This document shows positions 6,036 to 49,627 of a DNA stretch of 64,000 nucleotides, in pieces. This stretch comes from Terebella lapidaria (lineage: Eukaryota; Annelida; Polychaeta; Terebellida; Terebellidae). The stretch's first letter is position 1. Each line of letters starts with the position of its first letter. The translations under genes and the position numbers were made by a program. Under the pieces are notes generated by a model. It was not told the DNA's origin. It worked only from the letters and a program-made list of their open reading frames with translations, and did no database searches. The DNA lies in the NCBI GenBank assembly GCA_949152475.1, contig OX424564.1, positions 39,430,165 to 39,494,164 of the forward strand. Reading direction: 5' to 3'.

Positions 6036-9000
6036 ATTTGAGACCCCCTCCCTGTGTGCAAGTGATGTGATGTCCGTCTCCCCCCTCCGTGTGCAAGTGA
6101 TGTGATGTCCGTCTCCCCCTCCCTGTGTGCAAGTGATGTGATGTCCGTCTCCCCCCTCCCTGTGTGCAAGTGATGTGATGTCCGTCTCCCCCCTCCCTGT
6201 GTGCAAGTGATGTGATGTCCGTCTCCCCCCTCCCTGTGTGCAAGTGATGATATGTCCGTCTCCCCCCTCCCTGTGTGCAAGTGATGTGATGTCCGTCTCC
6301 CCCCTCCCTGTGTGCAAGTGATGTGATGTCCGTCTCCCTGTGTGCAAGTGATGTGATGTCCGTCTCCCTGTGTGCAAGTGATGTGATGTCCGTCTCCCTG
6401 TGTGCAAGTGATGTGATGTCCGTCTCCCCCCTCCCTGTGTGTAAGTGATGCGATGTCCGTCCCCCCCCCCCTCCCTGTGTGCAACTGATGCGATGTCCGT
6501 CTCCCCCCTCCCTGTGTGCAAGTGATGTGATGTCCGACTCCCCCCTCCCTGTGTGCAAGTGATGTGATGTCCGTCTCCCCCCTCCCTGTGTGCAAGTGAT
6601 GTGATGTCCGTCTCCCCCCTCCCTGTGTGCAAGTGATGTGATGTCCGTCTCCCCCCTCCCTGTGTGCAAGTGATGTGATGTCCGTCTCCCCCCTCCCTGT
6701 GTGCAAGTGATGTGATGTCCGTCTCCCCCCTCCCTGTGTGCAAGTGATGTGATGTCCGTCTCCCCCCTCCCTGTGTGCAAGTGATGTGATGTCCGTCTCC
6801 CCCCTCCCTGTGTGCAAGAGATGCGATGTCCGTCTCCCCCCTCCCTGTGTGCAAGTGATGCGATGTCCGTCTCCCCCCTCCCTGTGTGCAAGTGATGCGA
6901 TGTCCGTCTCCCCCCTCCCTGTGTGCAACTGATGCGATGTCCGTCTCCCCCCTCCCTGTGTGCAACTGATGCGATGTCCGTCTCCCCCCTCCCTGTGTGC
7001 AAGTGATGCGATGTCCGTCTCCCCCCTCCCTGTGTGCAAGTGATGTGATGTTCGTCTCCCCCCTCCCTGTGTGCAAGTGATGTGATGTCCGTCTCCCCCC
7101 TCCCTGTGTGCAAGTGATGTGATGTCCGTCTCCCCCCTCCCTGTGTGCAAGTGATGTGATGTCCGTCTCCCCCCTCCCTGTGTGCAAGTGATGTGATGTC
7201 CGTCTCCCCTTCTCCCTGTGTGCAAGTGATGTGATGTCCGTCTCCCCTTCTCCCTGTGTGCAAGTGATGTGATGTCCGTCTCTCCTTCTCCCTGTGTGCA
7301 AGTGATGTGATGTCCGTCTCCCCTTCTCCCTGTGTGCAAGTGATGTGATGTCCGTCTCCCCTTCTCCCTGTGTGCAAGTGATGTGATGTCCGTCTCCCCT
7401 TCTCCCTGTGTGCAAGTGATGTGATGTCCGTCTCCCCCCTCCCTGTGTGCAAGTGATGTGATGTCCGTCTCCCCCCTCCCTGTGTGCAAGTGATGTGATG
7501 TCCGTCTCCCCCCTCCCTGTGTGCAAGTGATGTGATGTCCGTCTCCCCTTCTCCCTGTGTGCAAGTGATGTGATGTCCGTCTCCCCTTCTCCCTGGGTGC
7601 AAGTGATGTGATGTCCGTCTCCCCCCCTCCCTGTGTGCAAGTGATGTGATGTCCGTCTCCCCCCCTCCCTGTGTGCAAGTGATGTGATGTCCGTCTCCCC
7701 CCCCTCCCTGTGTGCAAGTGATGTGACGTCCGTCTCCCCCCTCCCTGTGTGCAAGTGATGTGATGTCCGTCTCCCCCCTCCCTGTGTGCAAGTGATGTGA
7801 TGTCCGTCTCCCCCCTCCCTGTGTGCAAGTGATGTGATGTCCGTCTCCCCCCTCCCTGTGTGCAAGTGATGTGATGTCCGTCTCCCCCCTCCCTGTGTGC
7901 AAGTGATGTGATGTCCGTCTCCCCCCTCCCTGTGTGCAAGTGATGTGATGTCCGTCTCCCCCCTCCCTGTGTGCAAGTGATGTGATGTCCGTCTCCCCCC
8001 TCCCTGTGTGCAAGTGATGTGATGTCAGTCTCCCCCCTCCCTGTGTGCAAGTGATGTGATGTCCGTCTCCCCCTCCCTGTGTGCAAGTGATGTGATGTCC
8101 GTCTCCCCCCCTCCCTGTGTGCAACTGATGTGATGTCCGTCTCCCCCCCTCCCTGTGTGCAAGTGATGTGATGTCCGTCTCCCCCCCCTCCCTGTGTGCA
8201 AGTGATGTGACGTCCGTCTCCCCTCCCTGTGTGCAAGTGATGTGACGTCCGTCTCCCCCTCCCTGTGTGCAAGTGATGTGACGTCCGTCTCCCCCTCCCT
8301 TTGTGCAAGTGATGTGACGTCCGTCTCCCCCTCCCTGTGTGCAAGTGATGTGACGTCCGTCTCCCCCTCCCTGTGTGCAAGTGATGTGACGTCCGTCTCC
8401 CCCTCCCTGTGTGCAAGTGATGTGACGTCCGTCTCCCCCTCCCTGTGTGCAAGTGATGTGACGTCCGTCTCCCCCTCCCTGTGTGCAAGTGATGTGACGT
8501 CCGTCTCCCCCTCCCTGTGTGCAAGTGATGTGACGTCCGTCTCCCCCTCCCTGTGTGCAAGTGATGTGACGTCCGTCTCCCCCTCCCTGTGTGCAAGTGA
8601 TGTGACGTCCGTCTCCCCCTCCCTGTGTGCAAGTGATGTGACGTCCGTCTCCCCTCCCTGTGTGCAAGTGATGTGAAGTCCGTCTCCCCTCCCTGTGTGC
8701 AAGTGATGTGAAGTCCGTCTCCCCTCCCTGTGTGCAAGTGATGTGACGTCCGTCTCCCCTCCCTGTGTGCAAGTGATGTGACGTCCGTCTCCCCTCCCTG
8801 TGTGCAAGTGATGTGACGTCCGTCTCCCCTCCCTGTGTGCAAGTGATGTGACGTCCGTCTCCCCTCCCTGTGTGCAAGTGATGTGACGTCCGTCTCCCCC
8901 TCCCTGTGTGCAAGTGATGTGACGTCCGTTTCCCCTCCCTGTGTGCAAGTGATGTGACGTCCGTCTCCCCTCCCTGTGTGCAAGTGATGTGACATCCGTC

Positions 9001-9538
9001 TCCCCTCCCTGTGTGCAAGTGATGTGACGTCCGTCTCCCCTCCCTGTGTGCAAGTGATGTGACGTCCGTCTCCCCTCCCTGTGTGCAAGTGATGTGACGT
9101 CCGTCTCCCCTCCCTGTGTGCAAGTGATGTGACGTCCGTCTCCCCTCCCTGTGTGCAAGTGATGTGACGTCCGTCTCCCCTCCCTGTGTGCAAGTGATGT
9201 GATGTCCGTCTCCCCCCTCCCTGTGTGCAAGTGATGTGATGTCCGTCTCCCCCCTCCCTGTGTGCAAGTGATGGGATGTCCGTCTCCCCCCCCCCCCCCT
9301 CCCTGTGTGCAAGTGATGGGATGTCCGTCTCCCCCCCTCCCTGTGTGCAAGCGATGGGATGTCCGTCTCCCCCCCCCCCTCCCTGTGTGCAAGCGATGGG
9401 ATGTCCGTCTCCCCCCCTCCCTGTATGCAAGTGATGGGATGTCCGTCTCCCCCCCCCCCCCTCCCTGTGTGCAAGTGATGGGATGTCCGTCTCCCCCCCC
9501 CTCCCTGTGTGCAAGTGATGTGATGTCCGTCTCCCCAC
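6036..9538. repeat. Minisatellite of 35-37-bp units, about 95 copies
   Basis: The unit is built on CCTGTGTGCAAGTGATGTGA followed by TGTCCGTCTCC and a C tract. Unit length depends on the C tract: 37 bp in most of 6036-8215, 36 bp in about 8216-8650, 35 bp in about 8650-9190, and 37 bp or longer with up to 12-13 C in 9190-9538. Sequence variants also cluster: GATGCGATG (near 6450-6500 and 6820-7020), CCTTCTCC (7200-7600), TGACGTCC (7720-9180) and GATGGGATG (9270-9500). A truncated unit lacking the C tract repeats at about 6330-6420. Long minus-strand reading frames run through it in all three frames because the unit has no stop codon; they are not genes. Confidence 0.95.
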
Positions 9539-23061: not shown

Positions 23062-24888
23062 TTAGCCCAAGGGCTAAGAAAGGTTATCGGACAATACATT
23101 TTAGATATTAGCCTTTTGTCCAGTGACCTTGAAAATAAAGTCACTGATAAATTCAAGGCCATGAAATTTTCAACAAATATATCACTTCTAGTATGTCCAC
23201 AATAAATTCCTATGCTGTAAAGTCGATAATAAGTGAGACATTAGCCATTCTGTGATGTGACCTTGAAAATGAGGTCAAAGTTCAAGTTCAAGGTCATGAA
23301 AATATTCAGTATATATCATTCCTCTATATTCGCAATTGATTCCTATGCTGTAAATGTAAGTATCAATCTATTACCACCAATACAATCAGATTTTGATGAT
23401 GCCAATAAGAAACGCAAAATACTACATTTTGCAATAGAAACAAACAAAGCCCGACCAAACAGTTTATCCAAAGACACACTGGCGTCTTCAGGGGCAGACA
23501 ATGTGTTAAATGTAGTTGTTTCTACTGTACACCAGATGGAATTAGTATACAACTGCCCAACAACCTATGAAAATAATTTAGAAATCCGAATCCAACCCCA
23601 TGGAACAGATACATGACAAGTACAGTCAAAAGTACCCAATCACAAGCCCGAAGGCTAATGAGTTGATGGTATCCTCGGGGACAGATTTAACCTCCGCCAG
23701 CAGTGACACCGACTCAGTGATATAAATGTAAGTATCAATCTATTACCACCAATACAATCAAATTTTGATGGTGCCAAAAAGAAACGTAAAATACAACATT
23801 TTGCAATAGAAACAAAGCCCGACCAAATAGTTTATCCAAAGACACACTGGTGTCATCAGGGGCAGATGTAAAGATGATAATAAGCGATATATTAGCCATT
23901 TTGTTCTCTAACCTTGAAAATGAGATCAACGGTCAAATTCTAGATCACCAAAATATTCAGCATACATCTTTTCCTATATGTTCACTCTGGACCCCTAAGC
24001 TGTAAATTTGATAATAAGCGAGATCTAAGCCATTTTGTATTCTGACCTTGAAAATAAAATGATTAACCTTGAAATTTAGGTCAAGGGTCAAATTCAAGGT
24101 CACTAGAATATTCAGCATATATTATTTCCTATATGTTCACAATTGATTCCTAAGCTGCAAAGTCGCTAATAAGCAAGATATTGGCCATTTTGTCCTGTGA
24201 CCTTGAAAATGAGGTCAAAGTCAAGGTCACGAGAATATTCAGCAGATATCATTTCCTATATGTTCACAATTGATTCCTAAGCCGTAAAGTCGATAATAAG
24301 CGAGATATTAGCAATTTTGTCCTGTGACCTTGGAAATGAGGTCAAAGGTCAAATTCAAGGTCACGAGAATATTCAGCATATATCATTTCCTATATGTTCA
24401 CAATTGATTCCTAAGCTGTGAAGTCGATAATAAGCGAGATATTAGCCATTTTGTCCTGTGACCTTGAAAATGAGGCCAAAGGTCAAATTCAAGGTCACGA
24501 GGATATTCAGCATATATCATTTCCTATATGTTCACAATAGATTCCTAAGCTGTAAAGTCGATAATAAGCGAGATATTAGCCATTTTGTCCTGTGACCTTG
24601 AAAATGAGGTCAAAGGTCAAATTCAAGGTCACGAGAATATTCAGCATATATCATTTCCTATATGTCCACAATTGATTCCTAGTCTCTAATCTCAATATTA
24701 AGTGATATATTAGGCTTAATGTGTCCCATTATAAAGCATAGGAAAATTTAACATGGGAAAGTCACATCTGGGCCGAGTTTGGGCCCAAAATGGCCCACTT
24801 CGAGTGATTCAAGCGCATCGAAGTTTATACATGTCACAGAAGTACATATGAGGAGTGTTATGCATCAATAAAAAAAAACTAGACTCTT
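23062..24888 (+). mobile_element. Family 1 element, subfamily A2, first segment
   Basis: The head at 23062 has the standard hairpin; the TIR reads GGTTATCGGAC here. The 134-bp units carry a gene-like insert at 23355-23872. The element breaks at 24888 after CATCAATAAAAAAAAA and resumes at 28807 with AAAAGTTACTGAACAG, the sequence that normally follows that A run. Confidence 0.7.
23355..23872 (+). pseudogene. Gene-like insert inside a family 1 A2 element, copy 1
   Basis: Sequence unlike the surrounding 134-bp units, bounded on both sides by GTAAA. A 147-bp block occurs twice, offset by 372 bp (from 23355 and 23727). It reads in one frame as INLLPPIQSDFDDANKK then ETNKARPNSLSKDTLASS. Between the blocks, after an acceptor-like AATAATTTAG, a 47-codon frame (23582-23725) starts KSESNPMEQIHDKYSQ and ends SASSDTDSVI before TAA. 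Composition and splice-like borders suggest captured 3' exons of a host gene I do not recognise. The second block is frameshifted by a 4-nt deletion. Confidence 0.5.
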
Positions 24889-33390: not shown

Positions 33391-35464
33391 TTAGCCCAAG
33401 GGCTAAGAAAGGTTACCGGACAATATACATTTTAGATATTAGCCTTTTGTCCAGTGACCTTGAAAATAATTTTTCAACAAATATATCACTTCTAGTATGT
33501 CCACAATAAATTCCTAAGCTGTAAAGTCGATAATAAGTGAGATATTAGCCATTCTGTGATCGGTGATGTGACCTAGAAAATGAGGTCAAAGTTCAAGTTC
33601 ATGAAAAGATTCACTATATATCATTCCTCTATATTCGCAATTGATTCCTAAGCTGTAAAGATGATAATAAGCGACATATTAGCCATTTTGTTCTCTGACC
33701 TTGAAAATTGGATCAAAGGTCAAATTCTAGATCACCAAAATATTCAGCATACATCCTAAGCTGTGAATTTGATAATAAGAGAGATATAAACCATTTTGTA
33801 TTCTGACCTTGAAAATAAAATGACTGGCCTTGAAATTTAGGTCAAAGGTCAAATTCAAGGTCATGAGAATATTCAGAATATATCATTTCCTATATGTTCA
33901 CAATTGATTCCTAAGCTGTAAAGTTGATAATAAGCAAGATATTAGCCATTTTGTCCTGTTGACCTTGAAAATGAGGTCAAAAGTCAAATTCAAGGTCACT
34001 AGAATATTCAGCATATATCATTTCCTATATGTTCACAATTGATACATAAGGCGTAAAGTCACTAATAAGCAAGATATTGGCCATTTTGTCCTGTGACCTT
34101 GAAAATGAGGTCAAAGGTCAAATTCAAGGTCACAAAAATATTCAGCATATATCATTTCCTATATGTTCACAATTGATTCCTAAGCTGTTAAGTCAATAAT
34201 AAGCGAGATATTAGCAATTTTGTCCTGTGACCTTGGAAATGAGGTCAAGGTCAAATTCGAGGTCACGAGAAAATTCAGCATATATCATTTCCTATATGTT
34301 CACAATGTACTCCTAAGCTGTAAAGTCGATAATAAGCGAGATATTAGCCATTTTGTCATGTGACCTTGAAAATGAGGTCAAAGGTCAAATTCAAGGTCAT
34401 GAGAATATTCAGCATATATCATTTCCTATATGTTCACAATGTATTCCTAAGCTGTAAAGTCGATAATAAGCGAGATATTAGCTATTTTGTCATGTGACCT
34501 TGAAAACGAGGTCAAAGGTCAAATTCAAGCTCATGAGAATATTCAGCATATATCATTCCCTATATGTTCACAATTGAATCCTAAGCTGTAAAGTCGATAA
34601 TAAGCGAGATATTAGCCATTTTGTCCTGTGACCTTGAAAATGAGGTCGAAGGTCAAATTCAAGGTCATGACAATAATCTGCATATATCATTTCCTAAATG
34701 TTCATAATTGATTCCTAAGCTGTAAAGTCGTTAGAAGTGAGATATTAGCCATTTTGTCCTGTGACCTTGAAAATGAGGTCAAAGGTCAAATTCAAGGTCA
34801 TCAGAATATTCGGTATATATCATTTCTTATATGTCCACAATTGATTTCTAAGCTGTAAAGTCGATAATAAGCGAGATATTAGCCATTTTGTTCTTTGACC
34901 TTGAAACTGAGGTCAGAGGTCAAACTCAAGGTCACGAGGATATTCAGCATATATCATTTCCTATATGTCCACAATTGATTCCTAGTCTCTAATCTCAATA
35001 TTAAGTGAGATATAAGGCATAATGTGTCCCATTATAAAGCATAGGAAAATTTAACATGGGAATGTCCCATTTGGGCCAAGTTTGGCCCAAAATGGCCCAC
35101 TTCGAGCGATTCAAGCGCAACGAAACTTATACACATCACAGGAGTACATATGAGGAGTGCTGTGTATCAAAAAGAAAAAAAGTTACTGAACAGTTTTTGA
35201 GAAAATGGCCGCCAAAGTCCAAAATCAGGCATTTTTCGTCGAAAACGGCCGCCATTTTGAAACAAATGCGAAAATCGAAAAACAAAAAAAAACCTTTCCT
35301 TGAAATATTTTTAGGTATTTTTGTGCAAAATTTCAGAAAGATTCCATCACATACTTTAAAGATAAAAATGTGAACGGACGACGGACGGAGGGACGGACGA
35401 CGGACGACGGACGACGGACGCAACGCCATGCCAATAGGTTATCGGACCATAGGTCCGGTAACCT
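33391..35464 (+). mobile_element. Family 1 element, subfamily A2, complete, without the gene-like insert
   Basis: The head at 33391 follows GATAAAAA and the tail hairpin ends at 35464. The same A2-specific leader (GATATTAGCCTTTTGTCCAG) is present. At the place where other A2 copies carry the insert, this copy reads CTAAGCTGTAAAGATGATAATAAG straight through (near 33653-33670). It is the empty-site allele of the insert. The host resumes with TGTGAACGG at 35470. Confidence 0.8.
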
Positions 35465-35939: not shown

Positions 35940-35946
35940 AAAAAAA

Positions 35947-38808
35947 TTAGCCCAAGGGCTAAGAAAGGTTACCGGACAATATACATTTTAGATATTAGCC
36001 TTTTGTCCAGTGACCTTGAAAATAAAGTCACTGATAAATTCAAGGCCATGAAATTTTCAACAAATATATCACTTCTAGTATGTCCACAATAAATTCATAA
36101 GCTGTAAAGTCGATAATAAGTGAGACATTAGCCATTCTGTGATGTGACCTTGAAAATGAGGTCAAAGTTCAAGTTCAAGGTTATGAAAATATTCAGTATA
36201 TATCATTCCTCTATATTCGTAATTGATTCCTATGCTGTAAATGTAAGTACCAATCTATTACCACCAATACAATCAGATTTTGATGATGCCAATAAGAAAC
36301 GTAAAATACTACACTTTGCCATGGAAACAAACAAAGCCCAACCAAATAGTTTATCCAAAGACACACTGGCGTCTTCAGGGGCAGACAATGTGTTAAATGT
36401 AGTTGTTTCTACAGTACACCAGATGGAATTAGTACTAGGAAAATAATTTAGAAATCCGAATCTAACCCCATGGAATAGATACATGACAAGTACAAAAGTA
36501 CCCAATCACAAGCCCGAAGGCTACTGAGTTGATGGTATCCTCGGGGACAGATTTAACGTCCGCCAGCAGTGACACCGACTCAGTGGTATAAATGTAAGTA
36601 TCAATCTATTACCACCAATACAATCAAATTTTGAAGTTGCCAATAAGGAAAGTAAAATACAACATTTTGCAATAGAAATAAAGCCCGACCAAATAGTTTA
36701 TCCAAAGACACACTGGCGTCATCAGGGGCAGATGTAAAGATGATAATAAGGGACATATTAGCCATTTTGTTCTCTGACCTTGAAAATGAGATCAAAGGTC
36801 AAATTCTAGATCACCAAAATATTCAGCATACATCATTTCCTATATGTTCACTATGGACCCCTAAGCTGTAAATTTGATAATAAGCGAGATATAAGCCATT
36901 TTGTATTTTGACCTTGAAAATAAAATGACTAACCTTGAAATTTAGGTCAAGGGTCAAATTCAAGGTCACTAGAATATTCAGCATATATCATTTCCTATAT
37001 GTTCACAATTGATTCCTAAGCTGCAAAGTCGCTAATAAGCAAGATATTGGCCATTTTGTCCTGTGACCTTGAAAATGAGGTCAAAGGTCAAATTCAAGGT
37101 CACGAGAATATTCAGCATATATCATTTCCTATATGTTCACAATTGATTCCTAAGCTGCAAAGTCGCTAATAAGCAAGATATTGGCCATTTTGTCCTGTGA
37201 CCTTGAAAATGAGGTCAAAGGTCAAATTCAAGGTCACGAGAATACTCAGCATATATCATTTCCTATATGTTCACAATTGATTCCTAAGCTGCAAAGTCGC
37301 TAATAAGCAAGATATTGGCCATTTTGTCCTGTGACCTTGAAAATGAGGTCAAAGGTCAAATTCAAGGTCACGAGAATATTCAGCATATATCATTTCCTAT
37401 ATGTTCACAATTGATTCCTAAGCCGTAAAGTCGATAATAAGCGAGATATTAGCAATTTTGTCCTGTGACCTTGGAAATGAGGTCAAAGGTCAAATTCAAG
37501 GTCACGAGAATATTCAGCATATATCATTTCCTATATGTTCACAATTGATTCCTAAGCTGTAAAGTCGATAATAAGCGAGATATTAGCCATTTTGTCTTGT
37601 GACCTTGAAAATGAGGCCAAAGGTCAAATTCAAGGTCACGAGAATATTCAGCATATATCATTTCCTATATGTTCACAATGGATTCCTAAGCTGTAAAGTC
37701 GATAATAAGCGAGATATTAGCCATTTTGTCCTGTGACCTTGAAAATGAGGTCAAAGGTCAAATTCAAGGTCACGAGAATATTCAGCATATATCATTTCCT
37801 ATATGTTCACAATTGATTTCTAAGCTGTAAAGTCGATAATAAGCGAGATATTAGCCATTTTGTCCTGTGACCTTGAAAATGAGGTCAAAGGTCAAATTCA
37901 AGGTCACGAGAATATTCAGCATATATCATTTCCTATATGTCCACAATTGATTCCTAGTCTCTAATCTCAATATTAAGTGAGATATTAGGCTTGATGTGTC
38001 CCATTATAAAGCATGGGAAAATTTAACATGGGAAAGTCACATCTGGGCCGAGTTTGGGCCCAAAATGGCCCACTTCGAGTGATTCAAGCACAACGAAATT
38101 TATAAATGTCACAGAAGTACATATGAGGAGTGTTATGCATCAATAAGAAAAAAAGTTACTGAACAGATTTTGAGAAAACGACCATCAAAGTCCAAAATTA
38201 GCCATTTTCGACGAGAACGGCCGCTATGACCTTGAAACCAAGGTCAGAGGTCAAATTCAAGGTCACGAGAATATTCAGCATATATCATTTCCTATATGTC
38301 CACAATTGATTCTTAGTCTCTAATTTCAATTTTAAGTGAGATATTAGGCTTAATGTGTCCCATTATAAAGCATAGGAGAATTTAACATGGGAAAGTCCCA
38401 TTTGGGCCGAGTTTGGGCCCAAAATGGCCCACTTCGAGCGATTCAAGGGCAACGAAATTTATACATGTCAAAGGGGTACATAGGAGGAGTGTCATGCATC
38501 AATAAGAAAAAAAGTTACTGAACAGATTTTGAGAAAACGACCGTCAAAGTCCAAAATTGGCCATTTTTCGACGAAAAAGGCCGCCATTTTGAAAAAAATG
38601 CGAAAATCAAAAAACTAAAAAAAACCTTTCCTGGAAATATTTTTAGGTATTTTTGTGCAAAATTTCAGAAATATTCGACCATAAACTTTAAAGATAAAAA
38701 TGTGAACGGACGACGGACGGACGGACGGACGGACGGACGGACGACGGACGACGGACGACGGACGCAACGCCACGGCAATAGGTTATCGGACCAAAGGTCC
38801 GGTAACCT
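35947..38808 (+). mobile_element. Family 1 element, subfamily A2, complete, with gene-like insert
   Basis: The head hairpin is at 35947, preceded by an A run after a preceding tail. The gene-like insert is at 36242-36738, followed by about seven 134-bp units. The 3' modules follow, with the (GACG)n tract at 38707-38762 and the tail hairpin at 38781-38807. It is followed within six bases by the next head. Confidence 0.85.
36242..36738 (+). pseudogene. Gene-like insert, copy 2
   Basis: Same borders (GTAAA) and two-block structure as copy 1. It has a deletion in the middle (ACAACTGCCCAACAACC is missing) and the reading frame of the putative last exon is broken (GAATAG for GAACAG, and a 4-bp loss after GACAAGTACA). 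Confidence 0.5.
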
Positions 38809-38813
38809 AAAAA

Positions 38814-40785
38814 TTAGCCCAAGGGCTAAGAAAGGTTACCGGACAATATACATTTTAGATATTAGCCTTTTGTCCAGTGACCTTGAAAATAAAGTCACTG
38901 ATAAATTCAAGGCCATGAAATTTTCAACAAATATATCACTTCTAGTATGTCCACAATAAATTTCTAAGCTGTAAAGTCGATAATAAGTGAGACATTAGCC
39001 ATTCTGTGATGTCACTTTGAAAATGAGGTCAAAGTTCAAGTTCAAGGTCATGAAAATATTCAGTATATATCATTCCTCTATATTCGCAATTGATTCCTAT
39101 GCTGTAAATGTAAGTATCAATCTATTACCACTAATACAATCAGATTTTGATGATGCCAATAAGAAACGTAAAATACTACATTTTGCAATAGAAACAAACA
39201 AAGCCCGACCCAAGTTTATCCAAAGACACACTGGCGTCTTCAGGGGCAGACAATGTGTTAAATGTAGTTGTTTCTACTGTACACCAGATGGAATTAGTAT
39301 ACAACTGCCCAACAACCTATGAAAATAATTTAGAAATCCTAATCTAACCCCATGGAATAGATACATGACAATGACAAGTACAAAAGTACCCAATCACAAG
39401 CCCGAAGGCTACTGAGTTGATGGTATCCTCGAGGACAGATTTAACGTCCGCCAGCAGTGACACCGACTCAGTGGTATAAATGTAAGTATCAATCTATTAC
39501 CACCAATACAATCAAATTTTGATGATGCCAATAAGAAACGTAGAATACAACATTTTGCAATAGGAACAAAGCCCGACCAAATAGTTTATCCAAAGACACA
39601 CTGGCGTCATCAGGGGCAGATGTAAAGATGATAATAAGCGACATATTAGCCATTTTGTTCTCTGACCTTGAAAATGAGATCAAAGGTCAAATTCTAGATC
39701 ACCAAAATATTCAGCATACATCATTTCCTATATGTCCACTATGGACCCCTAAGCTGTAAATTTGATAATAAGCGAGATATAAGCCATTTTGTATTCTGAC
39801 CTTGAAAATAAAATGACTAACCTTGAAATTTAGGTCAAGGGTCAAATTCAAGGTCACTAGAATATTCAGCATATATCATTTCCTATATGTTCACAATTGA
39901 TTCCTAAGCTGCAGAGTCGCTAATAAGCAAGATATTGGCCATTTTGTCCTGTGACCTTGAAAATGAGGTCAAGGTCAAATTCAAGGTCACGAGAATATTC
40001 AGCATATATCATTTCCTATATGTTCACAATTGATTCCTAAGCCGTAAAGTCGATAATAAGGGAGATATTAACAATTTTGTCCTGTGACCTTGGAAATGAG
40101 GTCAAAGGTCAAATTCAAGGTCACGAGAATATTCAGCATATATCATTTCCTATATGTTCACAATTGATTTCTAAGCTGTAAAGTCGATAATAAGCGAGAT
40201 ATTAGCCATTTTGTCCTGTGATCTTGAAAATGAGGTCAAAGGTCAAATTCAAGGTCACGAGAATATTCAGCATATATCATTTCCTATATGTCCACAATTG
40301 ATTCCTAGTCTCTAATCTCAATATTAAGTGAGATATTAGGCTTAATGTGTCCCATTATAAAGCATAGGAGAATTTAACATGGGAAAGTCCCATTTGGGCC
40401 GAGTTTGGGCCCAAAATGGCCCACTTCGAGCGATTCAAGGGCAACGAAATTTATACATGTCACTGAGGTACATATGAGGAGTGTTATGCATGAATAAGAA
40501 AAAAAGTTACTGAACAGATTTTGAGAAAACGACAGCCAAAGTCCAAAATTGGCCATTTTTCGACGAAAACGGCCGCCATTTTGAAATAATTGCGAAAATC
40601 AAAAAACTAAAAAATACCTCCCTGTCGAAATATTTTTAGGCATTTTTGTGCAAAATTTCAGAAAGATTCGATCATAAACTTTAGAGATAAAAATGTAGAC
40701 GGACGACGACGACGGACGACGACGACGACGGACGACGGACGCAACGCCACGGCAATAGGTTATCGGACCAAAGGTCCGGTAACCT
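38814..40785 (+). mobile_element. Family 1 element, subfamily A2, complete, with gene-like insert
   Basis: The head is at 38814 and the tail hairpin at 40758-40784 after a GACGACG tract. It has fewer 134-bp units than its neighbour. The outer A1 element opened at 21318 appears to resume at 40786 (AAAAAGTTACTGAACAG). Confidence 0.8.
39109..39626 (+). pseudogene. Gene-like insert, copy 3
   Basis: Same structure as copies 1 and 2. The first block has lost a few bases (CCCGACCCAAGTTTATCC) and is frameshifted, and the putative last exon carries the same TAG as copy 2. Shared damage in copies 2-5, absent from copy 1, suggests they descend from one degraded ancestor. Confidence 0.5.
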
Positions 40786-44909: not shown

Positions 44910-46169
44910 TTAGCCCAAGGGCTAAGAAAGGTTACCGGACAATATACATTTTAGATATTAGCCTTTTGTCCAGTGACCTTGAAAATAAAGTCACTGATAA
45001 ATTCAAGGCCATGAAATTTTTAACAAATATATCACTTCTAGTATGTCCACAATAAATTCCTAAGCTGTAAAGTCGATAATAAGTGAGACATTAGCCATTC
45101 TGTGATGTGACCTTGAAAATGAGGTCAAAGTTCAAGTTCAAGGTCATGAAAATATTCAGTATATATCATTCCTCTATATTCGCAATTGATTCCTATGCTG
45201 TAAATGTAAGTATCAATCTATTACCACCAATACAATCAGATTTTGATGATGCCAATAAGAAACGTAAAATACTACATTTTGCAATAGAAACAAACAAAGC
45301 CCGACCAAATAGTTTATCCAAAGACACACTGGCGTCTTCAGGGGCAGACAATGTGTTAAATGTAGTTGTTTCTACTGTACACCAGATGGAATTAGTATAC
45401 AACTGCCCAACAACCTATGAAAATAATTTAGAAATCCGAATCTAACCCCATGGAATAGATACATGACAAGTACAAAAGTACCCAATCACAAGCCCGAAGG
45501 CTACTGAGTTGATGGTATCCTCGGGGACAGATTTAACGTCCGCCAGCAGTGACACCGACTCAATGGTATAAATGTAAGTATCAATCTATTACCACCAATA
45601 CAATCAAATTTTGATGATGCCAATAAGAAACGTAAAATACAACATTTTGCAATAGAAACAAAGCCCGACCAAATAGTTTATCCAAAGACACACTGGCGTC
45701 ATCAGAGGCAGATGTAAAGATGATAATAAGCGACATATTAGCCATTTTGTTCTCTGACCTTGAAAATGGAATCAAAGGTCAAATTCTAGATCACGAAAAT
45801 ATTCAGCATACATCATTTCCTATATGTTCACTATGGACCCCTAAGCTGTAAATTTGATAAGCGAGATATAAGCCATTTTGTATTCTGACCTTGAAAATAA
45901 AAAGACTAACCTTGAAATTTAGGTCAAGGGTGAAATTCAAGGTCACTAGAATATTCAGCATATATCATTTCCTATATGTTCACAATTGATTCCTAAGCTG
46001 CAAAGTCGCTAATAAGCAAGATATTGGCCATTTTGTCCTGCGACCTTGAAAATGAGGTCAAAGGTCAAATTCAAGGTCACGAGAATATTCAGCATATATC
46101 ATTTCCTATATGTTCACAATTGATTCCTAAGCTGTCAAGTTGAGAATAAGCGAGATATTGGCAATTTTG
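44910..46169 (+). mobile_element. Family 1 element, subfamily A2, with gene-like insert (duplicated part)
   Basis: The head is at 44910 and the insert at 45205-45718. The element passes into A3-type sequence at about 46170, the junction created by the 2,221-bp duplication. Confidence 0.7.
45205..45718 (+). pseudogene. Gene-like insert, copy 4
   Basis: Same borders and two-block structure. The first block is open as in copy 1 (DFDDANKKRK...), while the putative last exon shows the TAG and 4-bp loss shared with copies 2, 3 and 5. Confidence 0.5.
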
Positions 46170-47130: not shown

Positions 47131-49627
47131 TTAGCCCAAGGGCTAAGAAAGGTTACCGGACAATATACATTTTAGATATTAGCCTTTTGTCCAGTGACCT
47201 TGAAAATAAAGTCACTGATAAATTCAAGGCCATGAAATTTTTAACAAATATATCACTTCTAGTATGTCCACAATAAATTCCTAAGCTGTAAAGTCGATAA
47301 TAAGTGAGACATTAGCCATTCTGTGATGTGACCTTGAAAATGAGGTCAAAGTTCAAGTTCAAGGTCATGAAAATATTCAGTATATATCATTCCTCTATAT
47401 TCGCAATTGATTCCTATGCTGTAAATGTAAGTATCAATCTATTACCACCAATACAATCAGATTTTGATGATGCCAATAAGAAACGTAAAATACTACATTT
47501 TGCAATAGAAACAAACAAAGCCCGACCAAATAGTTTATCCAAAGACACACTGGCGTCTTCAGGGGCAGACAATGTGTTAAATGTAGTTGTTTCTACTGTA
47601 CACCAGATGGAATTAGTATACAACTGCCCAACAACCTATGAAAATAATTTAGAAATCCGAATCTAACCCCATGGAATAGATACATGACAAGTACAAAAGT
47701 ACCCAATCACAAGCCCGAAGGCTACTGAGTTGATGGTATCCTCGGGGACAGATTTAACGTCCGCCAGCAGTGACACCGACTCAATGGTATAAATGTAAGT
47801 ATCAATCTATTACCACCAATACAATCAAATTTTGATGATGCTAATAAGAAACGTAAAATACAACATTTTGCAATAGAAACAAAGCCCGACCAAATAGTTT
47901 ATCCAAACACACACTGGCGTCATCAGAGGCAGATGTAAAGATGATAATAAGCGACATATTAGCCATTTTGTTCTCTGACCTTGAAAATGGAATCAAAGGT
48001 CAAATTCTAGATCACGAAAATATTCAGCATACATCATTTCCTATATGTTCACTATGGACCCCTAAGCTGTAAATTTGATAAGCGAGATATAAGCCATTTT
48101 GTATTCTGACCTTGAAAATAAAAAGACTAACCTTGAAATTTAGGTCAAGGGTGAAATTCAAGGTCACTAGAATATTCAGCATATATCATTTCCTATATGT
48201 TCACAATTGATTCCTAAGCTGCAAAGTCGCTAATAAGCAAGATATTGGCCATTTTGTCCTGCGACCTTGAAAATGAGGTCAAAGGTCAAATTCAAGGTCA
48301 CGAGAATATTCAGCATATATCATTTCCTATATGTTCACAATTGATTCCTAAGCTGTCAAGTTGAGAATAAGCGAGATATTGGCAATTTTGTCCTGTGACC
48401 TTGGAAATGAGGTTAAAGGTCAAATTCAAGGTCATGAGAATATTCAGCATATATCATTTCCTATATATGTTCACAATGGATTCCTAAGCTGTAAAGTCGA
48501 TAATAAGCGAGATATTAGCCATTTTGTCCTGTGACCTTGAAAATGAGGTCAAAGGTCAAATTCAAGGTCACAAGAATATTCAGCATATATCATTTCCTAT
48601 ATGTTCACAATTGATTTCTAAGCTGTAAAGTTGATAATAAGCGATATATTAGCCATTTTGTCCTGTGACCTTGAAAATGAGGTCAAAGGTCAAATTCAAG
48701 GTCACGAGAATATTCAGCATATATCATTTCCTATATGTCCACAATTGATTCCTAGTCTCTAGTCTCAATATTAAGTGAGATATTAGGCTTAATGTGTCCC
48801 ATTATAAAGCATAGGAAAATTTAACATGGGAAAGTCACATCTGGGCCGAGTTTGGGCCCAAAATGGCCCACTTCGAATGATTCAAGGGCAATGAAATTTA
48901 TACATGTCACAGGGGTACATATGAGGAGTGTTATGCATCAATAAGAAGAAAAGTTACTGAACAGATTTTGAGAAAACGATCGTCAAAGTCCAAAATTGGC
49001 CATTTTTCGACGAAAATGGTCGTTCTGACCTTGAAACCGAGGTCAGGGGTCAAATTCAAGGTCACGAGAATATTCAGTATATATCATTTCCTATATGTCC
49101 ACAATTGATTCCTAGTCTCTAATCTCAATATTAAGTGAGATATTAGGCGTAATGTGTCCCATTATGAAGCATAGGAGAGTTTAACATGGGAAAGTCCTAT
49201 CTGGGCCGAGTTTGGGCCAAAATGGCCCACTTCGAGCGATTCAAGCGCGACGAAACTGATACACATCACAGGAGTACATATGAGGAGTGTTATGTATCAA
49301 AAAGAAAAAAAGTTACTGAACAGATTTTGAGAAAATGGCCGCCAAAGTCCAAAATCAGGCATTTTTCGTCGAAAATGGCCGCAATTTTGAAAAAAATGCG
49401 AAAATCAAAAAACTAAAAAAAACCTTTCCTGGGAATATTTTTAGGTATTTTAGTGCAAAATTTCAGAAAGATCGGACCGTATACTTTAAAGATAAAAATG
49501 TGAACGGACGGACGACGGACGGACGGACGGACGACGGACGACGGACGCAACGCCATGCCAATAGGTTATCGGACCAAAATCCAAAATTGACCGTTTTTCG
49601 ACGAAAACGGCTGCCATTTTGAAAAAA
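47131..49627 (+). mobile_element. Family 1 element, subfamily A2, with gene-like insert, truncated tail
   Basis: Head at 47131; this is the right copy of the tandem duplication up to about 48390 and then continues with its own units. The microsatellite at 49503-49545 leads to GGTTATCGGACCAAAA at 49564, where the tail hairpin is cut and joined to outer-element sequence (CCAAAATTGACCG...TTTTGAAAAAA). Confidence 0.7.
47426..47939 (+). pseudogene. Gene-like insert, copy 5
   Basis: Duplicate of copy 4 at an offset of exactly 2,221 bp, with single-base differences in the second block (GATGCTAAT; CCAAACACAC). Confidence 0.5.

Follow-up and report, generated by a model that had tools for sequence, protein, structure and literature searches.

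A free 363-bp tandem repeat, most likely not a captured gene, as the cargo of a Helentron-type element in the annelid Terebella lapidaria

The DNA analysed here, a stretch of 64,000 nucleotides from Terebella lapidaria (contig OX424564.1) that we call the window, contains several related mobile elements of a subfamily named A2, five of which carry the same cargo. This cargo is derived from a free, very abundant repeat of 363 bp, tandem and dispersed, and does not appear to be a stolen gene. The best reading of the whole is a transposon nested in a transposon, a retroposon-like tandem repeat hitch-hiking in a Helentron-type element: a free copy of the repeat inserted once into an ancestral A2 and was then amplified with it, a scenario to which we give a probability of about 0.9. 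Behind it stand a free family, an end common to its members and to the cargo, a short repeat flanking the insert and a subfamily of empty elements, and the insert gave no coding signal.

An initial annotation of the window, made from its letters alone, described five A2 copies with a common insert, GTAAA at both borders of this insert, and a further copy, at 33391, running uninterrupted through the site. Each of these observations was confirmed. With blastn (E up to 1e-3) exactly five places in the window match the insert, and identity to copy 1 is 92-97% in the remaining four; TGTAAA stands to the left and to the right of each insert, and just once at the site in the copy at 33391. The inserted length is 491-512 bp, the 497-518 bp given earlier being the insert plus one TGTAAA. 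The relevant features are the following.

23355..23866, forward strand: insert copy 1 (363-bp repeat, 1.4 units), with TGTAAA at 23349..23354 on the left and 23867..23872 on the right as target-site duplication
36242..36732, forward strand: insert copy 2, with TGTAAA at 36236-36241 and 36733-36738
39109..39620, forward strand: insert copy 3, with TGTAAA at 39103-39108 and 39621-39626
45205..45712, forward strand: insert copy 4, with TGTAAA at 45199-45204 and 45713-45718
47426..47933, forward strand: insert copy 5, with TGTAAA at 47420-47425 and 47934-47939
33654..33659, forward strand: empty site with a single TGTAAA, in the sixth A2 copy (33391; element start ~33386)
35942..38810, forward strand: A2 host of HINE/Helentron type, both ends found, 5' end TTAGCCCAAGGGCTAA, 3' end matching the last 45 bp of the element at genome locus L022
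38809..40787, forward strand: A2 host of HINE/Helentron type, both ends found

Copy 1 of the insert is internally repeated, the final ~144 bp being about 92% identical to the opening ~148 bp, and an end that repeats the start already hints at a tandem repeat. Aligned with the 363-bp unit, the inserts of the window run from position ~3 to 363 and then again from ~3 to 143, that is, over 1.4 units. Elsewhere in the window, at 6044-9536, there is a C- and T-rich minisatellite of 37 bp in about 95 copies.

The genome searched for the cargo comprises 761.6 Mb in 438 contigs. A first look gave 3,710 insert candidates, the best 40 of which, the window copy itself aside, are 97-99% identical. At locus L022 the arrangement is the reverse of that in the window: an A2 element sits within the start of the cargo sequence, which continues past the 3' end of the element, so the cargo occurs outside A2. 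The free form lacks four nucleotides (AACA) of the A2 form, and this made possible a specific search with a 71-nt signature, which matched 5,098 places of the genome at up to 3 mismatches; the reversed control matched none. Many of the 100 matches listed form arrays with a spacing of 360-364 bp, and one array on contig C1 is made of near-identical 363-bp units. Identity to the free-copy consensus is 94.5-96.6% for the A2 inserts and 93.5-99.4% for the free copies themselves; the GC content of the repeat is 0.39. Three further observations concern this family and its neighbourhood. The two halves of the consensus unit resemble each other slightly more than those of shuffled sequence do (score 37, the maximum in 200 mononucleotide shuffles being 36), perhaps as the trace of an old dimer. 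At locus L096 signature copies stand 1,154 bp apart, in a higher-order tandem that includes the 363-bp repeat. Another locus (L032:2532-2666) holds a long, near-perfect hairpin, scored below cut-off as MIR476 and perhaps a foldback element or a MITE.

The host, A2, has the features of the HINE/Helentron type. It starts at its 5' end with the palindrome TTAGCCCAAGGGCTAA; near this end GGTTACCGGAC has its reverse complement, GTCCGGTAACC, at the 3' end, which also bears the hairpin GGACCATAGGTCC. Central tandem arrays of 134-bp monomers are present in the window copies, with microsatellite arrays of ACGG before the 3' end. At L022 (1243-3600) the element splits a free 363-bp copy within AGAAACAAAG, a T/A-rich dinucleotide target and the sole one known for A2, with no target-site duplication there beyond an ambiguous A/AA. 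Nesting is thus seen in both directions, A2 inside the repeat as well as the repeat inside A2. Elements of the HINE type also stand head to tail in the window, with the 3' end of each meeting the 5' end of its successor, at 35941/35942, 38810/38809 and 43484/43483.

How the repeat may travel is suggested by its ends. We examined 52 free loci, taken from the first 100 signature places listed, all on contig C1; all are exact matches to the 71-nt signature, which leaves unsampled the copies without unit positions ~80-150, and 18 loci (L038-L053, L057 and L058), most of which overlap one another within common arrays, were omitted. The left boundary is in view in 46 of the 52, and in 45 of these 46 copies on C1 it falls between unit positions -4 and +4, the exception being L096. 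The A2 inserts, aligning from unit position 3, have the same fixed end. By contrast, the right ends of the 41 complete free copies cover the whole unit with no departure from a uniform distribution (Kolmogorov-Smirnov p = 0.93). (Locus L031, a duplicate of L030, is counted in the 46 and left out of the 41, and L096 belongs to both sets.) The flanks of these 41 copies also resemble each other more than expected: the longest match between them has a mean length of 5.15 nt, compared with 4.36 (sd 0.14) after permutation, none of 500 permutations reaching this value. Matches of at least 7 nt occur in 6 of the 41 copies (1.1 expected, permutation maximum 5), and those of at least 6 nt in 11 (4.9 expected, the permutation maximum likewise being 11). 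Examples of these matches, similar to target-site duplications, measure 15 nt (L055), 9 nt (L084) and 8 nt (L060); in the free copies at large they are short and often absent, and in L084 and L094 extra bases separate the repeat from the duplication. The latter locus (L094:60-1100) shows that the 363-bp repeat has, independently, entered a HINE a second time, here one of A type; TCTTAATG flanks it left and right, and there are ~18 nt of additional sequence.

Target-primed reverse transcription, the mode of transposition of LINE-type elements, yields copies with one end fixed and the other random, and duplicates the target. With its border at the fixed end and its own 6-bp duplication, the A2 insert is most readily understood as the product of a single, ordinary transposition of the 363-bp repeat. 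The common end of the free copies and the excess of matches between their flanks further suggest that the repeat does not depend on the Helentron to move.

That the insertion took place once is supported by the filled elements. Twenty-four were checked, namely 20 genome loci, window copy 1 being among them as L001, and the other four copies of the window. The diagnostic AACA is present in 22 of the 24, the exact left border in 21 and the exact right border also in 21, the misses being single-base changes or small indels. The filled 3' junction matches 826 places in the genome at up to 3 mismatches. The earlier proposal of a single capture followed by amplification with A2 thus stands in one half, the single event and its amplification, which the single site, the pair of TGTAAA and the common 3' end bear out; its other half, the exons of a host gene as source, finds no support.

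Capture of the 3' exons of a host gene by the Helentron, with their subsequent amplification, has something in its favour: Helitrons are described, in passages of a study of such elements, as prone to capturing genomic sequence, genes included (PMC7492417), and the insert does have open stretches in several frames. These stretches do not exceed chance, the longest open reading frame of the tandem consensus having 65 codons, a length that 202 of 300 dinucleotide shuffles equal or better. The third codon position is the most mismatched in four of the nine frames of the repeat, among them both frames of the peptides proposed by the initial annotation, yet the excess is significant in none (p = 0.16 to 0.95 with sites shuffled; 682 mismatches in 44 copies). 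Two insert peptides found no match in Pfam at E up to 10, nor did one open reading frame of the window in PDB. Above all, free copies in their thousands, together with tandem arrays, contradict capture, and the insert turning out to be a free repeat family is the very finding that the annotation had named as speaking against its own proposal. We hold gene capture to be extremely unlikely, and an identifiable piece of a host gene is not supported as the cargo, which is a free repeat with no Pfam or PDB match for the peptides searched and no coding signal; that the repeat family itself descends from a gene in the distant past, a distinct matter, is still conceivable. A second alternative is that the copy at 33391 once carried the insert and lost it when the two TGTAAA repeats recombined. 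To be sure, direct repeats that recombine precisely, deleting what lies between them, would leave an identical site, and after the site GCGACATAT is common to 33391 and to 7 of the 24 filled copies, so that the base there does not split the classes. For this reason GCGAC versus GCGAT after the site was dropped as a diagnostic in favour of TAAGC versus TATGC before it. There, 33391 reads TAAGCTG, like ordinary 134-bp monomers, whereas 22 of the 24 filled copies read TATGCTG (one of the others has TTTGCTG and one is unscored); this speaks against the deletion, which would have retained the filled-type base. Furthermore, 397 places in the genome match the empty site of 33391 at up to 1 mismatch, which makes this copy part of a common empty subfamily. 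A looser search, which allowed up to 3 mismatches and counted 899 places, was set aside because it can take in ordinary monomers, which are just 4 mismatches away; the loose pattern has one chance match in the window, at 48608. Judged from these sites, the empty state of 33391 does not seem to be a loss peculiar to this copy, and we regard such a loss as very improbable.

A third alternative keeps the core of our reading and changes its mechanism. A piece of the 363-bp repeat might have been copied as filler DNA into the array of A2 during Helentron replication or break repair, joined by microhomology at TGTAAA or TAAA, and no retroposition would be involved. HINEs are reported, in excerpts of the same study, to gain internal segments, and models of filler DNA have been put forward (PMC7492417); moreover, the flanking match is just 6 bp, and TAAA is found in both repeat and target. 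Against this, the left border of the insert coincides with the fixed end of 45 of the 46 free copies, a coincidence with a chance of about 9 in 363, and the free copies combine the same fixed end with an excess of duplication-like matches. Filler capture is accordingly an unlikely route in our eyes.

Under the preferred reading, that of a transposition, the sequence of events would run as follows. A dispersed, tandem and retroposon-like repeat would have jumped once into an ancestral A2, a non-autonomous Helentron (HINE), landing in its tandem-repeat region and duplicating 6 bp of the target, TGTAAA. Viewed on its minus strand, the repeat has a fixed 3' end and a variable 5' end, often with more than one unit in tandem. 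A minus-strand RNA ending near CUUACAUU would be copied by target-primed reverse transcription, presumably with an enzyme borrowed from a LINE or from a Penelope-like element. Both strands of the repeat fold about equally (z -2.86 and -2.73), so the choice of RNA strand is drawn solely from the fixed and variable ends. The filled lineage of A2 would then have been copied to hundreds of sites, presumably through the Helentron machinery. As to the first of these vehicles, we lean towards movement of the 363-bp repeat via RNA.

The case has several consequences. When few copies are in view, a nested mobile repeat can mimic a captured gene. Here, an ordered chain can be laid out for the travel of a satellite unit, from free repeat to Helentron insert to hundreds of copies, with the reverse nesting besides. 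And a tandem repeat with one fixed and one random end, matched by its signature at more than 5,000 places, makes RNA-mediated dispersal of satellites testable in this genome. A search of the literature found no paper joining target-primed reverse transcription, tandem repeats, satellites and circular RNA, and we make no claim that the family is unpublished.

Among known systems, A2 is close to Cg_HINE of the oyster Crassostrea gigas, which, as portrayed in passages of its description (PMC7492417), shares with it central tandem repeats, a 3' hairpin, a microsatellite near the 3' end, a 5' subterminal segment with an inverted match to the 3' end, and insertion with no target-site duplication, a trait seen for A2 at L022 only. 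The likeness is one of description, not of sequence; unlike Cg_HINE, A2 is built on 134-bp monomers and holds a second, unrelated repeat nested in it. DINE-1, as partly described in PMC4067079, is also to be named among the nearest non-autonomous Helentron systems.

For the 363-bp repeat itself, animal retrozymes are the closest architectural match, and it may work like one. Metazoan non-LTR retrozymes are characterized, in sections of PMC7229834, by tandem units of 150-450 bp, low GC content and, when present, target-site duplications above 4 bp. The repeat resembles them in unit size, in a GC content below 50% and in its thousands of copies; duplication-like matches above 4 bp occur in some copies, in excess as a set, yet they reach 7 nt in just 6 of the 41. 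It differs from what those sections describe in that no type I hammerhead was found on either strand, and for this reason it is not classed as a retrozyme. In the motif scan, the minus strand has CTGATGA with no GAAA within 40 nt, and the plus strand has no such pair. Rfam gave five weak matches and no ribozyme for 801 bp of array (E up to 10), five miRNA-like matches below cut-off and no ribozyme for six repeat loci (E up to 5), and no match over the window at gathering scores; a genome-wide search with RF00163 matched nowhere, its controls included, and hence says nothing about hammerheads. We entertain, tentatively and with more doubt than conviction, the idea of a retrozyme-like retroposon devoid of a hammerhead, with a fixed, processed 3' end and a multimeric or circular RNA reverse-transcribed at the target. 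If true, it would explain arrays that keep a constant phase and are truncated at random at the 5' end, it would have the repeat supply a satellite to a Helentron that then spread it, and it would constitute a second route from RNA to satellite DNA, ribozyme-less or with an unknown ribozyme.

Mollusc satellites related to SINEs offer another precedent, as parts of PMC11121367 relate. PcH-sat of Patella, related to Nin-SINE, is like the 363-bp repeat both dispersed and tandem, with traits of a mobile element; compared in this way by traits, not by sequence, the repeat stands apart from what is related of PcH-sat in having one end fixed in the dispersed copies examined.
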